A stretch of DNA of 64,000 bases from Lysobacteraceae bacterium NML93-0399. GTDB lineage: Bacteria > Pseudomonadota > Gammaproteobacteria > Xanthomonadales > Xanthomonadaceae. A program made the translations under genes and the position numbers. This document shows positions 5,587 through 35,337 of this stretch, piece by piece. Numbering within the stretch: the stretch's first letter is position 1; each line of letters begins with the position of its first letter. The notes under the pieces are model-generated. The model ran no database searches. It had not been told where the DNA came from and saw nothing but the letters and a program-made list of their open reading frames with translations. The stretch lies in the NCBI GenBank assembly GCA_002307375.1, contig NTJI01000001.1, positions 620,001 to 684,000 of the forward strand, written 5' to 3'.

Positions 5587-7698
5587 GTGATTGCCACTGC
5601 TCCCAGGCGCCTGCTGCTGACCTGTTCGGTCGTGCTGGCGCTGTCCGCCTGTTCGGGCGGTCAGGATGCTTCCACGGCGACGGACACCGCCGCGACCACC
5701 ACCGATGTCGAGCCCAGGGCGCTGACGCTCGACGAGAGCGCGCTGCCCGGCGTGAACCGCTTCGAGATCGGCGATCTCGACACCAGCAAGAACGCGTGTA
5801 CCGATTTCAACGGCTACGCCAACGGCAAGTGGCTGGCCGCCAACGCCATCCCCGGCGACCGCACGTCGTGGGGTGCGTTCGAGATGCTCGACGAGCGCTC
5901 GACCGCGATCCAGCGCCAGCTCGCCGAACAGTCGGCCGCCGACATGGCGGCAACGGGCGTACAGAAGATCGTCGGCGACTTCTGGGCCACCGGCATGGAC
6001 GCCGAAACGATCAACGCCCAGGGCATCGAACCGCTGGCCGATCGCCTGGCGGCGATCGATGCGCTGGCCGATGGCCCGGCCGTGGCGCAGTACCTGCGCA
6101 GCACCTACGCACGCGGCGAGGGCGGGCTGTTCGGTTTCGGCCCGGAGGCCGACTTCGACGCGCCGACGATGAACATCGCCTATGTGATGCAGGGTGGCCT
6201 GGGCCTGCCCGACACCACCTACTACACCGACGCCGACAAGGCAGAAACGCGCGAGCAGTACGTGGCGCACATCGCCAGAACGCTGGAACTCTCCGGCGTG
6301 CCGGCCGCCGATGCGGCCAACCAGGCCAAGGCCGTGCTGGCCTTCGAGACGCGCCTTGCCGGCAAGTCCAAGTCCAGCGTCGAGATGTCGCGTGACGTGA
6401 AGCTGTTCTACAACCCGGTCACACCGGCGCAGGCCGACGCGCTGACGCCGAACTTCCCGTGGACGGCGTTCTTCGAATCGCAGGGCGTCGCGGTGCCGGA
6501 GAAGTTCTCGCTGGCGATTCCCGAGTTCCACCAGGAAGTGAGCGCCATGCTCGGCGACACGCCGGTCGCCGACTGGCAGGCCTACCTGCGCTATCACCTG
6601 GTCGACGGGGCATCGCCGTACCTGGGCGATGCGTTCGTGCAGGAGAACTTCGACTTCTACGGCAACAAGCTGCGCGGCCAGAAGGAACTCAAGGCGCGCG
6701 AAAAGCGCGTGCTCGACACGCTCAACGGCCAGGCCGGCGAAACGCTGGGCCAGCTGTACGTGCAGGTCGCGTTCCCGGCCGAATCGAAGGCGCGCATGGA
6801 GACGCTGGTCAAGAACCTGTCGGATGCGCTGAAGGTGCGCATCGAGAATCTCCACTGGATGACCGACGAGACCAAGGCGCGCGCCATGGACAAGTGGGCC
6901 TCGTTCACGCCGAAGATCGGTTACCCGGACAAGTGGCGCGACTGGAGCGGCCTCAGCACCTCGCGTGACAGCTACATCGGCAACGTGCTCGCTGCGACCG
7001 AGTTCAACTACAAGTGGGCGCTGTCGAAGATCGGCCAGCCGGTCGACAAGACCGAATGGGGCATGACCCCGCAGACGGTCAACGCCTATTACAACCCGCT
7101 GCAGAACGAGATCGTGTTCCCGGCGGCCATCCTGCAGCCGCCGTTCTTCGATCCCGAGGCCTCGGACGAGATCAACTACGGCGGCATCGGCGCGGTGATC
7201 GGTCACGAGATGACCCACGGCTACGACGACCAGGGCAGCCGCTTCGGGCCGACCGGCAAGTTCGAGAACTGGTGGACCCAGGCCGACGCGGCCGGTTTCG
7301 AAGGCCGCACCGATCGGCTGATCGCGCAGTTCAACGGTTACGAGGCGGTGCGCGGCCAGCACGTCGACGGCAAGCTGACGCTCGGCGAGAACATCGCCGA
7401 CCTCGGCGGCCTGGCCACGGCCTTTGATGCGATGAAGGCGGCGGCCGGCGATACGCCCGACCCGATGACCGACGGCCTGAGCCGCGATCAGCGCTTCTTC
7501 CTCAACTGGGCCACGGTGTGGCGTCGCAACTTCACCCCGCAGGAACTCGACGTGCGGCTGAAGACCGACCCGCACGCGCCGGCGAACTTCCGCGCGATCG
7601 GCGCGCCGTCGAACCTGCCAGCGTTCGCGGCCGCGTTCTCGTGCAAGCCGGGCGACCCGATGGTCCGCCAGGGCGAGCAGCAGGTCGTGATCTGGTGA
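5587..7698 (+). CDS. M13-family zinc metallopeptidase, lipoprotein (active-site intact)
   Basis: A neprilysin/PepO-like endopeptidase, probably anchored in the periplasm and acting on peptides. The GTG start at 5587 is chosen because a GGAGA site precedes it and the product then opens with a lipoprotein signal (hydrophobic stretch ending LSAC, lipid Cys near residue 22). The 703-residue protein has the M13 N domain, then the catalytic domain: NAYYNP substrate motif, HEMTH zinc motif (His540, Glu541, His544), ENIAD third ligand (Glu601), and the C-terminal DPHAP...R motif and terminal Trp. A diverged, probably inactive paralogue follows downstream. A strong terminator lies between the two genes, so they are probably separate transcripts. 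Confidence 0.93.
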   Translation: MIATAPRRLLLTCSVVLALSACSGGQDASTATDTAATTTDVEPRALTLDESALPGVNRFEIGDLDTSKNACTDFNGYANGKWLAANAIPGDRTSWGAFEMLDERSTAIQRQLAEQSAADMAATGVQKIVGDFWATGMDAETINAQGIEPLADRLAAIDALADGPAVAQYLRSTYARGEGGLFGFGPEADFDAPTMNIAYVMQGGLGLPDTTYYTDADKAETREQYVAHIARTLELSGVPAADAANQAKAVLAFETRLAGKSKSSVEMSRDVKLFYNPVTPAQADALTPNFPWTAFFESQGVAVPEKFSLAIPEFHQEVSAMLGDTPVADWQAYLRYHLVDGASPYLGDAFVQENFDFYGNKLRGQKELKAREKRVLDTLNGQAGETLGQLYVQVAFPAESKARMETLVKNLSDALKVRIENLHWMTDETKARAMDKWASFTPKIGYPDKWRDWSGLSTSRDSYIGNVLAATEFNYKWALSKIGQPVDKTEWGMTPQTVNAYYNPLQNEIVFPAAILQPPFFDPEASDEINYGGIGAVIGHEMTHGYDDQGSRFGPTGKFENWWTQADAAGFEGRTDRLIAQFNGYEAVRGQHVDGKLTLGENIADLGGLATAFDAMKAAAGDTPDPMTDGLSRDQRFFLNWATVWRRNFTPQELDVRLKTDPHAPANFRAIGAPSNLPAFAAAFSCKPGDPMVRQGEQQVVIW

Positions 7699-7723
7699 TC
7701 GACGCGGCATCGCGTTGACGACG

Positions 7724-7751
7724 AAGCCCGGCAGCGATGCCGGGCTTTTTT
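7724..7751 (+). terminator. Terminator after the first M13 peptidase gene
   Basis: AAGCCCGGC/GCCGGGCTT stem with an AGCGAT loop and six Ts, 25 bp past the stop codon. Confidence 0.85.
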
Positions 7752-7814
7752 GTGCGTCGGCACGCTCGTGGATCGCGTTTGCCAAGTCGGGCAACACCAG
7801 CGAAGAGTGCAGTA

Positions 7815-7975
7815 TCCGGCTCCTTCTCCCGCTTTGCGGGGAAGGCCGGGATGGGGGCGAACGATCGGATCAGCGAAACATGGACTCGAGCGAAGCGCGC
7901 GCAGCGTCTCTAGGTTGGCGCCGTCTGGAAGTTCGCCCCCACCCAACCCTCCCCCGCGCGGGAGGGCTTGAGCGT
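7815..7975. repeat. Paired inverted REP-like palindromes (third module of the 845-1487 type)
   Basis: The left unit at 7820-7863 (TCCTTCTCCCGC...GCGGGGAAGG then GGGATGGGGGCGA) and the right unit at 7931-7973 (CGCCCCCACCCAACCCTCCC...) face each other across about 70 bp. As in the 5' copies, the module follows a terminator. The interval 7752-8081 holds nothing else recognisable. Confidence 0.75.
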
Positions 7976-8081
7976 TCGCTCGAACCGCAACGCGTCGTGC
8001 TCCGCGTCCCGCATTTCTCGCGCATGTTGCGGTCCTGAGGCTTGCTAGACTTGCGCGATTCACGCCCGCACGGACCCTGCA

Positions 8082-10106
8082 ATGCCGATCCAGCACACGC
8101 TTGCCCGCCCCGCCCTGCTCGCCGCCTCGATCGCATTGCTGGTCGGCCTGAGTTCCGATGCCGATGCCCAGCGTCGTCGCGCCGCCGCCCCGAAGGGGCC
8201 GCCGCCGGTGACCGCCTGTACCGACCTCTACACCTTCGTCAACAAGGACTGGCTGGACGCGAACGTGCTCGTGGCCGGTGAGGGCACGCGCTCGGCGCTG
8301 GGTGAGCTGCAGACCATCGCCGTCTCCCAGCAGCACGAGCTGCTCAACGCGGCGATGACATCGCCGCAGAACGACGTGCAGCGCCTGCTCGGCGACTTCT
8401 GGGCCAGCGGCCTGGACGAGGCAGCGGTGGAGGCCGATGGCGCGCAGCCGATCGCCCCGCTGATCGCCCGCATCGACGGCATCCGCCGCACCCGCGACAT
8501 CGCACCGGCCCTGGCCGCGCTGCACCAGGTCGGCATTCCGGTGCTGTTCGAATTCGGCGCCGAAGTCGATCTCGCCGATCTCAATCGCCATATCGGCTAC
8601 TTCACCCAGGGCGGCCTGGGTCTGCCCGACCCGGCGTATTACAGTCGCAGCGACGCCGAGACCCAGCAGATCGTCGCGCAGTACACGCAGTACGTGCGCA
8701 ACATCCTCGCCCTGACCGGCACCGCCGAAGACAGCCTCGACGCCGAGACCGCGCTGGTGATCGACCTGGAGCGTCGCATCGCCGCCGCCTCCAGGCCGGT
8801 GGCCGACCTGCGCGATCCGCGCACGCAATACGCGCTGGTCGACACCGCCGGCCTGGACAAGCAGTACCGCCGCCTGCAGCTGGGCGAATTCCTCGCCGCC
8901 CAGGGCGTGGAAGCGACGCAGGTGTCGCTGGCCAATCCCGAGCTGTTCGCGCAGCTCGACACGCTGGTCAACGCGCTCAAGGCCGACCAGTGGAAGGCGT
9001 ATCTGCGCTTCCACATCGGCAATGCGATGGCGCCGTATCTGTCCAAGAGCTTCCGCGACGCGGAGTTCGATTTCCACGGCCGCATCCTGCGCGGCGAAAG
9101 CGCGCAGCCCACCCGCCAGCAGCTCGTGCTCGGCGCGATCAACCGCGCCGCCGGTCCGATGCTGGCGCGCGAGTACGTCGCCGCCCACCTGCCCGACGCC
9201 ACGCGTGCGCGCGCCGAAACCATCGCCGGTGAAGTGCGCGACGCGCTGGGCCGCGGCATCGACCGCAGCAGCTGGATGACCGACGCGGCCAAGACCGAGG
9301 CGCGCGCCAAGCTGGCGGCGCTGAAGATCGAAATCGGCGCGCCGGTGCAGGACATCGACTACAGCGTGCAGCCGATGGGCCGCGCCAGTTTCGGCAGCAA
9401 CATGCTGATCGCCTCGACCTGGCGCCACGGTCAGGAAATGCGCCGCATCGGCCAGGCCAACGCCTCGCGCCGCTGGGGCGTACTGCCGCAGACGCCGGCG
9501 CTGGCCTACGACCTGGCGCAGAACCGCCTGATCGTGTCGGCCGCGATGCTGCAGCCGTTCGTGCTCGAGCTCGCCGGCGACCCGGCCGCGCATTACGGCA
9601 TCTTCGGTGCGCTGGTGGGCCACGAGCTGAGCCGCGCGGTCGATATCAAGGGGCGCGCGGTCGACAGCACCGGCACCGTGCGCACCTGGTGGAGCGCCGA
9701 CGATGAAGCGGGCTGGCTGACCGCCACCGACAAGCTTGTCGCGCAGTACAACGCCTATCCGTATCCGGGCCTGACCGGCGTGCAGGTCAACGGCGCGCTG
9801 ACGCGTGACGAGAATGCCGCCGACCTTGCGGGCGTCGAACTGGCCTGGGATGCTCTGCAGCACGCCAATCCGGAACTTGCGCAGTCGGGCAAGGAAGCGT
9901 TCTTCCGCGGCTGGGCCCAGCTGTGGCGCCAGCAGTCGGCCGTCGACGCTGCCACCCGCAACGCCGCAATCGCCGTGCACGCGCCCGGCCAGTGGCGTGC
10001 GAACGGCCCGGTGGTGCACCTGCCGGCCTACACCGAAACCTTCAAGTGCCGCGACGCGGATCCGATGAGCCGCAAGGCCGATGATCAGGTGCGGATCTGG
10101 CGATGA
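8082..10106 (+). CDS. M13-family metallopeptidase paralogue, predicted inactive (HELSR)
   Basis: A 674-residue exported protein with a signal peptide ending ADA (about residue 29) and full-length M13 architecture, clearly related to its upstream neighbour. The zinc motif HExxH reads His514-Glu515-Leu-Ser-Arg518, so the second zinc ligand is replaced by Arg (codon CGC at 9633-9635). The NAYY substrate motif is also lost (PALAYD). Other catalytic-site residues persist: ENAAD with Glu577, and VHAP...R near the end. The reading frame is intact with no sign of decay, which suggests selection for a non-peptidase role such as binding or regulating the active paralogue. That role is inference. Family assignment is secure. 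Confidence 0.9.
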   Translation: MPIQHTLARPALLAASIALLVGLSSDADAQRRRAAAPKGPPPVTACTDLYTFVNKDWLDANVLVAGEGTRSALGELQTIAVSQQHELLNAAMTSPQNDVQRLLGDFWASGLDEAAVEADGAQPIAPLIARIDGIRRTRDIAPALAALHQVGIPVLFEFGAEVDLADLNRHIGYFTQGGLGLPDPAYYSRSDAETQQIVAQYTQYVRNILALTGTAEDSLDAETALVIDLERRIAAASRPVADLRDPRTQYALVDTAGLDKQYRRLQLGEFLAAQGVEATQVSLANPELFAQLDTLVNALKADQWKAYLRFHIGNAMAPYLSKSFRDAEFDFHGRILRGESAQPTRQQLVLGAINRAAGPMLAREYVAAHLPDATRARAETIAGEVRDALGRGIDRSSWMTDAAKTEARAKLAALKIEIGAPVQDIDYSVQPMGRASFGSNMLIASTWRHGQEMRRIGQANASRRWGVLPQTPALAYDLAQNRLIVSAAMLQPFVLELAGDPAAHYGIFGALVGHELSRAVDIKGRAVDSTGTVRTWWSADDEAGWLTATDKLVAQYNAYPYPGLTGVQVNGALTRDENAADLAGVELAWDALQHANPELAQSGKEAFFRGWAQLWRQQSAVDAATRNAAIAVHAPGQWRANGPVVHLPAYTETFKCRDADPMSRKADDQVRIWR

Positions 10107-10112
10107 GGGGCG

Positions 10113-10296
10113 GTGATTGGTGATTCGTGATTGGTGATTGGAAAGAGCGCCGGTCCGCTTCTGATCCACCACCAGCCACCAGCCACCACAAAAAAAGGCC
10201 GCACATCGTGCGGCCTTTTTTTCTAGAGGAACACGCGATCCCTATCGTCCCCGGGGATCGCAATTAGGAATCACGAATCACGACTCACGAATCACC
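10113..10296. repeat. Inverted TGATTCG-type heptamer arrays flanking a terminator
   Basis: The array at 10113-10141 (units TGATTGG/TGATTCG) and the reverse-complement array at 10267-10296 (CGAATCA units) bracket the hairpin at 10190-10222 between the convergent M13 paralogue and rhomboid genes. The same arrangement occurs at 21586-21858 and 35231-35320. Confidence 0.8.
10190..10222. terminator. Bidirectional terminator between convergent genes
   Basis: A7-GGCCGCAC/GTGCGGCC-T7 hairpin with an ATC loop. It has T runs in both directions and serves the M13 paralogue (plus) and the rhomboid gene (minus). Confidence 0.9.
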
Positions 10297-10317
10297 TCGG
10301 ACGGTCTCGCCCTCCGA

Positions 10318-10968
10318 TCACAGCCGCCGCACGTGGCGCTTGCCGCCGCGGTTGAACGGCGGGCGACCGCGCCAGTGCTGCAGCAGCAGCCAGCCGAACA
10401 GCATGCCGCCCAGATGGGCGAAGTGGGCCACGCCCGAACGCGTGCCGGTGATGCCGAGCACCAGTTCGACCAGGCCGTAAACGATCACCAGCGTGCGCGC
10501 GCGCATCGGGATCGGCGGGAACAGCAGCACCAGACGCTGGTTGGGGAACAGCACGCCGTAGGCCAGCAACAGGCCGAATACGCCGCCCGATGCACCCAGC
10601 GTGGGATACGGGAATGCGCCCTGCGCCAGCGACCACGTCACCACGCCGAGCTGGCACAGGCCGGCGCCGATCACGCAGGTGAGGTAATACGTGACGAAGC
10701 GCTTCGTGCCCCAGGTGTACTCGAGCTGCGAGCCGAACATCGCCAGCGCCAGCATGTTGAACGCCAGATGCGCGATGTTGCGCGGGTCGTGCATGAAACC
10801 GTAGGTGACCAGCTGCCAGGGCTGGAAGCCAAGGCCACCGACTTCGCTGCCACCCAGCGGCCAGAGCATGAAATACGCGAGCGCGTTGCCGACCGCCAGC
10901 TGCAGCACGAACACGACGATGTTGATGGCCAGGATCGCTTTGACGGCCTGCGGCAACCTCGGAAACAT
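10318..10968 (-). CDS. Rhomboid-family intramembrane serine protease
   Basis: A 216-residue integral membrane protein with six predicted helices that cleaves transmembrane substrates in the inner membrane. The catalytic Ser127 lies in GASGG and the catalytic His185 in AHLGG. The WQLVTYGFMHDP segment and the loop with NIAHLAFNMLAL are typical of bacterial rhomboids. The start ATG at 10968 has an AGGAG site 5 bases upstream; the frame is open further upstream but without membrane or family signal. The transcript probably starts near the upstream ATL gene. The natural substrate is unknown. Confidence 0.92.
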   Translation of the reverse strand: MFPRLPQAVKAILAINIVVFVLQLAVGNALAYFMLWPLGGSEVGGLGFQPWQLVTYGFMHDPRNIAHLAFNMLALAMFGSQLEYTWGTKRFVTYYLTCVIGAGLCQLGVVTWSLAQGAFPYPTLGASGGVFGLLLAYGVLFPNQRLVLLFPPIPMRARTLVIVYGLVELVLGITGTRSGVAHFAHLGGMLFGWLLLQHWRGRPPFNRGGKRHVRRL

Positions 10969-20757: not shown

Positions 20758-21588
20758 ATGCTTCAACCTGCTGTCAACATCATGGTCAAGGCGGCGCGCG
20801 CCGGTGGTGGCGTCCTGCTCCGCAACATGCACAAGCTCGACGCGCTGAACGTCGTCGAGAAGGCCCGCCACGATTACGCGAGCGAGGTCGATGGCCTGGC
20901 CGAGGAAGCGATCGTCAAGGAACTGCGCCGCGCCTATCCCGAATACGCCGTGCTCGGCGAGGAAGGCGGCGCCAAGCCCGGTCGCGGCGGGCCGAGCCGT
21001 TACACCTGGGTCATCGATCCGCTCGACGGCACCAGCAACTACCTGCGCGGCTATCCCCACTGGTGCGTGTCGATCGCGCTGGTCGAGGGCGGCGAACCGC
21101 TGCACGGCGTGATCTTCGACCCGCTGCGCAACGAGCTGTTCACCGCGACGCGCGGCGCCGGCGCCCAGCTCAACGAGCGTCGCATCCGCGTCGCCGATCG
21201 CAAGGATCTGTCGGGCGCGATTATCGGCACCGGCTTCGCCCCGCGCGAGCGCAAGCGCGCCGGCGCGCAGCTGCGTGCGGTCGAAGCTCTGCTCGACTCG
21301 GCCGAGGACGTGCGCCGCAGCGGCTCGGCCGCGCTCGACCTGGCCTACGTGGCCGCCGGTCGCAGCGACGGTTACTTCGAAGCCGGCGTGCATCCCTGGG
21401 ACATCGCCGCCGGCGTGCTGCTGGTCCGCGAGGCCGGCGGCCGCATCAGCGACTTCAAGGGCGCGACGACCGGCCCGATGAACGTGGCTTTTGCCGGCGG
21501 TCGTCAGATCGTCGCGGGCAATGTGCGGCTGGTCGAGCCGCTGCAGAAGGCCCTGGTCGATTCGGGCTATGCGAAGGAATTTGCTTGA
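20758..21588 (+). CDS. suhB: Inositol-1-monophosphatase family protein SuhB
   Basis: A Mg2+-dependent, Li+-sensitive phosphatase; in E. coli SuhB also joins the rRNA antitermination complex. The 276-residue protein has the metal-binding motifs [15 protein letters not shown] and [15 protein letters not shown]. The N-terminus [20 protein letters not shown] matches family starts. The stop codon TGA is itself the first unit of a TGATTCG heptamer array. Confidence 0.94.
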
Positions 21589-21627
21589 TTCGTGATTCGT
21601 GATTGGTAATTCGTGATTCGAAACAGC

Positions 21628-21764: not shown

Positions 21765-21803
21765 AAAAGCAGAAGGCCGCGCAGTGCGCGGCCTTCTGCT
21801 TTT
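21765..21803 (-). terminator. Terminator after secF (second hairpin copy, bidirectional)
   Basis: A long, near-perfect stem AAAAGCAGAAGGCCGCGC...GCGCGGCCTTCTGCTTTT with T runs on both strands. The core is identical to the 21628 hairpin. Confidence 0.8.
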
Positions 21804-21864
21804 CACGAATCACGAATCACGAATCACGAATCACGAATCACGAATCACGAATCACGAATCACGA

Positions 21865-35230: not shown

Positions 35231-35320
35231 TTTCGTGATTGGTAATTCGTGATTCGTGATTCGTAAAAGCCGGATGTTTGCAGACCGCGATGACCCGCTT
35301 TGTCGAATCACGAATCACCC
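35231..35320. repeat. Inverted TGATTCG-type heptamer arrays between queC and queE
   Basis: 35231-35263 contains TGATTGG/TAATTCG/TGATTCG units; 35304-35320 carries the reverse complement (CGAATCACGAATCA). They flank about 40 bp. There is no strong terminator hairpin here, unlike the other two arrays. Confidence 0.75.
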
Positions 35321-35337
35321 ATGACTAACCACCGCGC

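Follow-up and report, generated by a model that had tools for sequence, protein, structure and literature searches.

A gene in the window (the whole stretch of 64,000 nucleotides of DNA that was analysed) encodes an M13 family protein, here called P2, in which an arginine stands in place of the second zinc-binding histidine and the substrate-anchoring motif has been replaced by another. P2 lies next to a complete M13 metallopeptidase (P1) and probably belongs to a lineage of M13 pseudopeptidases that is old and extends across the family, and whose members, judging from their sequences, would work without catalysis as binding, carrier or scavenging proteins. Across this lineage the zinc site has been lost repeatedly and by different routes while the protein has been kept, and its role is therefore very probably one that needs no cutting.

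Results

P2 and its upstream neighbour

P2 is encoded on the + strand at 8082..10106, in an open reading frame of 674 aa with an ATG start and no internal stops. The two Pfam M13 domains cover both P2 and P1 nearly end to end, P2 scoring 287.9 bits with PF05649 and 134.8 bits with PF01431 (curated cut-offs 32 and 24.5). In PepS, an M13 enzyme from Shewanella, zinc is reported to be bound by His531, His535 and Glu592, Asp538 and Asp596 orient the two zinc-binding histidines, and Arg660 pairs with Asp596; activity is abolished by each of the changes E532A, E592D, D538N, D596A and R660K and is low in H654A (PMC4701951). At the first of these sites P2 reads HELSR (residues 514-518; 9621..9635, + strand), with Arg518 (codon CGC, 9633-9635) at the position of the second zinc histidine. 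The initial annotation had reported this substitution in an intact frame, and the reading frame and the alignment bear it out. The same annotation had found NAYY to be gone, which is also correct: PALAY (residues 472-476; 9495..9509, + strand) stands where VNAYY is expected, and ALAY (473-476) substitutes for NAYY in a gapless alignment, so that the substrate edge-strand motif is gone and a new one is fixed. This loss is older and more general than that of the histidine, as described below. P2 thus has neither HExxH nor NAYY/NAFY, and has the third-ligand glutamate of ExxxD. Aligned with other M13 sequences, the window copy retains Glu515, the third zinc ligand Glu577 and Asp581 in ENAAD (577-581; 9810..9824, + strand), and His633 in HAPGQWR (633-639; 9978..9998, + strand). 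Also present is Asp521 (9642..9644, + strand), whose counterpart orients the second zinc histidine in active M13 enzymes (described for PepS, PMC4701951).

P1 lies upstream on the + strand, at about 5587..7698 (GTG start at 5587; 5536 is also possible), head to tail with P2, to which it is 33% identical over 640 aligned columns. The HEMTH noted earlier in this paralogue is there, and the other catalytic motifs are intact as well (NAYY, ENIAD and HAPANFR). A third M13 gene elsewhere in the same 3.57-Mb genome has all motifs, including NAYY, HEIIH and ENIGD.

P2 was modelled with AlphaFold2 from 106 aligned sequences, giving a mean pLDDT of 92.8 and a pTM of 0.88 (the P1 model has a pLDDT of 91.5). 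The P2 model superimposes on TfPepO (9eyg) with Z 41.1 and rmsd 3.4 over 630 residues at 24% identity, and on the open state of Zmp1 (6xly) with Z 40.9 and rmsd 2.9 over 630 residues at 28% identity. Foldseek places it in the neprilysin/PepO fold with an E of 1e-38, and structural matches that rank after the M13 proteins, at Z 7.1 or lower, are not used for any claim. The two-lobed M13 shell is thus predicted to be intact in P2.

Between the two genes, at 7726..7751 on the + strand, we read directly in the sequence a hairpin resembling an intrinsic terminator (GCCCGGCA GCGA TGCCGGGC followed by TTTTTT), which was not among the results of the pattern scan; a 45-base stretch centred on this region has a folding energy of -26.9 kcal/mol. 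A dispersed REP-like repeat follows at 7790..8010, with 74 matches in its own genome including the locus itself, and the pattern scan found no sigma-70-like site within 7600-10320. With the hairpin and the dispersed repeat intervening, it is unclear whether P1 and P2 form an operon. The window also holds tandem GTGATTS heptamers in three places, each on both strands and facing each other (10113-10139 and 10262-10295; 21585-21618 and 21801-21862; 35235-35268 and 35306-35325). This pattern has 19 matches in the window versus none in 100 shuffles, and a hairpin with a T run lies between the two members of the first pair.

Distribution of P2

Orthologues of P2 were found in 50 of 52 Luteimonas genomes, and at E 1e-130 a match was present in 333 of the 395 genomes of the family Lysobacteraceae, spanning 42 of its 54 genera; the other 62 genomes had no match at this threshold. 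In the order, 74 of 299 genomes matched at 1e-120, all but four of them belonging to Lysobacteraceae. Of these four, three had P1-like best matches with all motifs, and the fourth (G462) was P2. In the class, 3 of 185 genomes matched at 1e-115, all within Lysobacteraceae. Internal stops were absent from the matches listed.

Several individual loci stand apart. The P2-type protein of G462 carries HELVS; this genome is 77% complete and is assigned to another family of the order, so that the protein may reflect transfer or contamination. In G062, P1 is followed by a P2-like copy that was matched in pieces only and is apparently a broken gene. Three loci from other genera (L126, L127 and L128) have three to four M13 genes clustered in tandem. 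G073, one of the genomes scored as without P2 at the search threshold, has a very divergent protein (L181) with RGLMG and QVSY that falls on the P2 side of the tree, on a long branch that makes its placement unsure.

Motif conservation across orthologues

We aligned 220 distinct M13 reading frames from these loci with the two window proteins. Of the 115 P2 rows, six basal ones were left out to give a core set of 109. The counts for P1 leave out the third paralogue (L003). A truncated P2 of 378 aa (L052) stood among the P1 rows for residue counts and column entropy, and was excluded from the nine-residue, invariant-column and dN/dS sets.

Arg518 could have been a private mutation, a chance event or a sequencing error, and the recurrence of HELSR in relatives had been proposed as a check. 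HExxR occurs in 40 of the 49 full-length Luteimonas orthologues (19 HELSR, 15 HELGR, 3 HEMSR and one each of RELSR, HEIGR and HELNR), which rules all three out; the RELSR row has lost the first zinc histidine as well. HExxH is found in the remaining nine (8 HELSH and 1 HELGH), and outside the genus histidine is the commoner residue at this position (His 36, Arg 23 and Gly 1 in 60 core rows).

The difference between the two paralogues extends over the whole active site. Nine catalytic and substrate residues are all present in 103 of 103 P1-type rows versus 0 of 109 core P2 rows. The full zinc triad is kept in 31 of the 109 (22 of the 60 rows outside Luteimonas) and at least one ligand is missing in 78. 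His514 has been lost in 12 core rows (to R, M, Q, N, A or T), Glu577 in 27 (to A, Q, G, I, V, M or S) and His633 in 53 (to Q, R, Y, N, F, V or E). At position 518, 63 rows have R, 45 have H and one has G. The initial annotation had taken the remaining active-site residues to be kept, which holds for the window copy but not for the orthologues: with Glu577 and the histidine of HAPxxxR lost in so many of them, selection for catalysis does not as a rule maintain these residues. Other positions are nearly or fully constant, with Asp581 and Arg639 each in 109 of 109 core rows, Glu515 in 106 and Asp521 in 107.

The substrate-anchoring Asn is missing from every core row, so that any substrate binding by P2 would be altered; the suggestion that P2 binds substrates is plausible in this altered form. 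In its place ALAY is well conserved (A in 96, L in 101, A in 95 and Y in 109 of the 109 rows), as is Pro472 (108), which indicates that the substrate strand was re-fixed and not left drifting. Other residues distinguish the P2 lineage: Arg464 (108 of 109 rows; Glu in P1), Trp447 (109; Phe in P1) and Gly438 (109; a different residue in P1), while Pro472 corresponds to a Val of P1. Of the 89 columns that are invariant in P1 rows, P2 keeps many but not the zinc ligands; Trp536, Trp537, Trp615 and Cys656 are among those found in 109 of 109 core P2 rows.

We also looked at what accompanies Arg518. All 65 rows that have Arg518 also have Asp521, as do 46 of the 48 that have His518, so covariation does not discriminate for a pairing of Arg518 with Asp521. 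A salt bridge between Arg518 and Glu577 mimicking the zinc was rejected as a candidate: Glu577 is found in 51 of 65 Arg rows versus 34 of 48 His rows, and the two residues are not associated when the tree is taken into account (median p 1 over independent pairs, an underpowered comparison).

Order of losses

A maximum-likelihood tree of the 115 P2 rows was built with the motif columns removed and rows below 550 aa excluded; it comes from a quick search with SH-aLRT support only and has several open forks. In a wider tree of 72 rows, P2 is a single lineage separate from P1 and from the third paralogue. The minimum number of changes on the P2 tree is 1 for the substrate Asn, 12 for His514, 9 for His518, 14 for Glu577, 5 for Glu515, 19 for His633 and 0 for Arg639. 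The loss of the substrate Asn was a single, early event, and that of the zinc ligands was recurrent. A simple one-column model gives the core ancestor Ala at the Asn position (1.0) and His at 518 (0.95), with six steps from His to Arg, one from His to Asn, one from Arg to Gly and two from Arg to His at position 518; the last two weigh against the pseudopeptidase reading. The losses of His518 went to Arg in 6 of 7 cases versus 10 of 35 for His514 and His633 pooled (Fisher p 0.008); against His514 alone the p is 0.16, and the preference for Arg as the replacement at 518 is suggestive only. In the basal clade formed by L098, L100 and L101, the first has all motifs and the other two read HELMR (L101 retaining NAYY), so loss of the second histidine to Arg has occurred there too.

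Selection on P2

In the closest pairs of core P2 genes (dS <0.3, no dN filter, n=26) the median dN/dS is 0.138, with three pairs above 0.4 (0.68, 0.61 and 0.48). In 17 of these pairs P1 could be compared between the same two genomes, with medians of 0.121 for P2 and 0.153 for P1, P2 being the higher in 10, although P1 is only partly covered at many loci and the pairs are not independent. Pairs with a broken triad have a median of 0.121 (n=19) versus 0.235 for those with an intact one (n=6); as the former is not the higher value, loss of the triad does not visibly relax P2. Restricting the comparison by dN <0.15 gave medians of 0.250 and 0.246 (97 pairs), and 0.289 for intact (28 pairs) and 0.262 for broken triads (128 pairs), but such a filter caps dN/dS by construction and our claim of purifying selection rests on the unfiltered closest pairs.

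At larger distances the two proteins differ more. With dS <0.5 and no dN filter the median is 0.626 for P2 versus 0.510 for P1 in 546 paired comparisons, P2 lying above P1 in 374 of them and single pairs reaching 0.94; with dS <1.2 it is 0.551 for P2 versus 0.483 for the other M13 rows. We read these long-range values as largely the product of saturated dS in GC-rich genomes, which inflates both proteins. Mean column entropy at family scale is 1.20 for P2 versus 0.89 for P1 (446 columns, the truncated P2 standing among the P1 rows). Thus the dN/dS analysis that had been proposed gave a low ratio, similar to that of P1, in close pairs. Over the whole family P2 varies more than P1 and is likely under mildly weaker constraint.

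These data bear on two other explanations. P2 could be a decaying duplicate drifting towards a pseudogene, a reading to which the many losses of catalytic residues, the P2-like copy in pieces in G062, the 62 of 395 genomes without a match at threshold and the greater variability over long distances would lend themselves. The low dN/dS of the close pairs, the presence of the gene in 333 of 395 genomes and the new fixation of lineage-specific residues make it highly improbable. Alternatively, P2 could still be a peptidase, either binding zinc through His514, Glu577 and one further ligand that is new, or using a different metal. Glu515, Asp581 and Arg639 are kept almost throughout, and, with the triad intact in 31 core rows, some members of the lineage may still have a metal site and perhaps a degree of activity. 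Nevertheless, His514 and Glu577 have been lost in 12 and 27 core rows with no higher dN/dS in close triad-broken pairs, the Asn of NAYY is gone from all 109, and the change of the third ligand from Glu to Asp is by itself described as abolishing PepS activity (PMC4701951). We therefore consider continued catalysis as the general role of P2 improbable.

Neighbourhood and location

An M13 reading frame lies upstream of P2 on the same strand in 99 of the 115 P2 rows, with a median gap of 203 bp (91 gaps under 510 bp and 8 over 600 bp). The other 16 rows comprise four at contig ends, three with P1 1.7 to 4.7 kb upstream, seven with P1 elsewhere in the genome and two Luteimonas genomes that have P2 and in which no P1-type gene was found at E 1e-60 (G002, a match to Luteimonas aestuarii, and G043, a match to a metagenome-assembled Luteimonas). 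In tblastn searches of these last two loci with P1, P2 alone was matched; in G002 the order of the antiporter gene and P2 is preserved. At both (L142 and L144), where P1 is absent, a gene of the beta-CASP metallo-beta-lactamase fold lies directly upstream of P2.

The proteins appear to differ in how they are held in the cell envelope. A lipobox is present in 48 of 54 full-length P1-type rows, and the lipobox-like LSAC at the N-terminus of the window P1 predicts a lipoprotein. The N-terminus of the window P2 looks, by eye, like a signal of the signal-peptidase-I type followed by a short basic linker, and the 20 of 115 P2 N-termini inspected in this way likewise end in signal-peptidase-I-type sites; a lipobox regular expression matched 7 of 115, at positions that on inspection lie inside the signal core or ahead of it. 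The 22 residues preceding Cys46 of P2 have a median charge of +2 (115 rows), and the 35 residues preceding the matching Cys of P1 one of -2 (54 rows). From these features P2 looks to be exported as a soluble periplasmic protein and P1 to be a lipoprotein.

The proximity of the two genes raises the question of whether P2 regulates P1 or supports it structurally, in an active/inactive M13 hetero-complex like those of the M16B alpha/beta two-gene operons. The same-strand M13 neighbour in 99 of 115 rows (91 of these neighbours lying within 510 bp), the opposite charges of the stretches before the Cys and the precedents for active/inactive pairs, among them the His-to-Arg change to HxxDR in alpha-MPP cited in a pseudopeptidase review (PMC11266112), are consistent with such a pair. 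On the other hand, the window has a terminator-like hairpin between the genes, P2 varies more than P1 across the family, and P1 lies elsewhere in seven genomes. The active paralogue is adjacent, but the inactive protein does occur without it in G002 and G043, and P2 as an obligate partner of P1 is unsupported. We regard the hetero-complex as rather unlikely, and the earlier proposal that P2 modulates its active neighbour finds weak support in the gene order and is opposed by the hairpin and by the rows with P1 distant or missing.

Discussion

The proposal that P2 is a pseudoprotease is well supported indirectly, by the recurrence of HExxR, the repeated decay of the motifs, the low dN/dS of close pairs and the predicted fold. 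Under the non-catalytic reading that we prefer, the substrate-anchoring Asn-Ala would have been lost first, NAYY becoming ALAY with a preceding proline. Zinc chemistry would then have become dispensable, and separate branches would have lost the first histidine, the second (nearly always to Arg), the glutamate or the transition-state histidine, while the M13 shell and the new lineage-specific residues stayed under purifying selection. P2 would most likely act without catalysis, by keeping a peptide or a protein bound inside or at the former substrate chamber. Arg518 probably replaces the zinc-bound histidine structurally by pairing with Asp521, the residue that formerly oriented that histidine; one helical turn apart, the two could be joined by a salt bridge. 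P2 retains Asp521, Asp581 and Arg639, the counterparts of PepS Asp538, Asp596 and Arg660, and it is the zinc and transition-state residues that are given up.

A more specific version, which we put forward tentatively, is that the chamber now serves in the periplasm to receive or carry peptides, with residues of its own (Arg464, Pro472, ALAY and Trp447), feeding or guarding P1, and with Arg518 as the favoured structural stand-in for the histidine, in parallel to Drosophila Nepl15 and alpha-MPP. The zinc site might then evolve almost freely inside a selected protein.

The M13 pseudopeptidases that we found in print are from Drosophila, and our search of the openly licensed PMC literature returned no paper on a bacterial one; here we describe a bacterial lineage in hundreds of genomes, usually beside an active paralogue. 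Its natural orthologues, which keep, half-keep or lack the zinc site, provide a ready-made series for asking what a zinc-free M13 shell does, in what order the parts of an enzyme are lost, and why Arg often replaces a zinc-binding histidine. Annotation by family profile would label P2-type proteins as peptidases.

Compared with the PepO/Zmp1-type enzymes TfPepO and Zmp1, P2 has the same two M13 domains at full length and the same fold (Z about 41), but lacks the second zinc histidine and NAYY. The model also matched the structure of Haemonchus H-gal-GP; the portion of its description consulted for a precedent of an M13 hetero-oligomer contains no active/inactive pair (PMC7173941).

M13 proteins lacking catalytic residues have been described in Drosophila, with its 21 Nepl genes (PMC8223033), where a 2008 survey of the family had already listed probably inactive members (PMC2259306). 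Goe is the M13 case named in the consulted part of the pseudopeptidase review (PMC11266112), and in Nepl15, reported as likely secreted and not membrane-bound, two of the three zinc ligands have become Arg (PMC7822871). P2 resembles these proteins in having lost catalytic residues across its orthologues under purifying selection, as measured in the closest pairs, and a secreted Nepl15 parallels a secreted P2 beside a lipoprotein P1. They are animal proteins, however, and the ligand losses of P2 are patchy and repeated instead of common to all orthologues.

Among bacterial peptidases, active/inactive pairs are described for M16B (PMC11266112). The M16B and MPP systems share with P1 and P2 the arrangement of active and inactive paralogues in two genes, and the inactive MPP subunit shows a His-to-Arg change as well (PMC11266112). 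They belong to family M16, however, and their inactive subunit is needed for activity, whereas P2 persists without P1 in two genomes.
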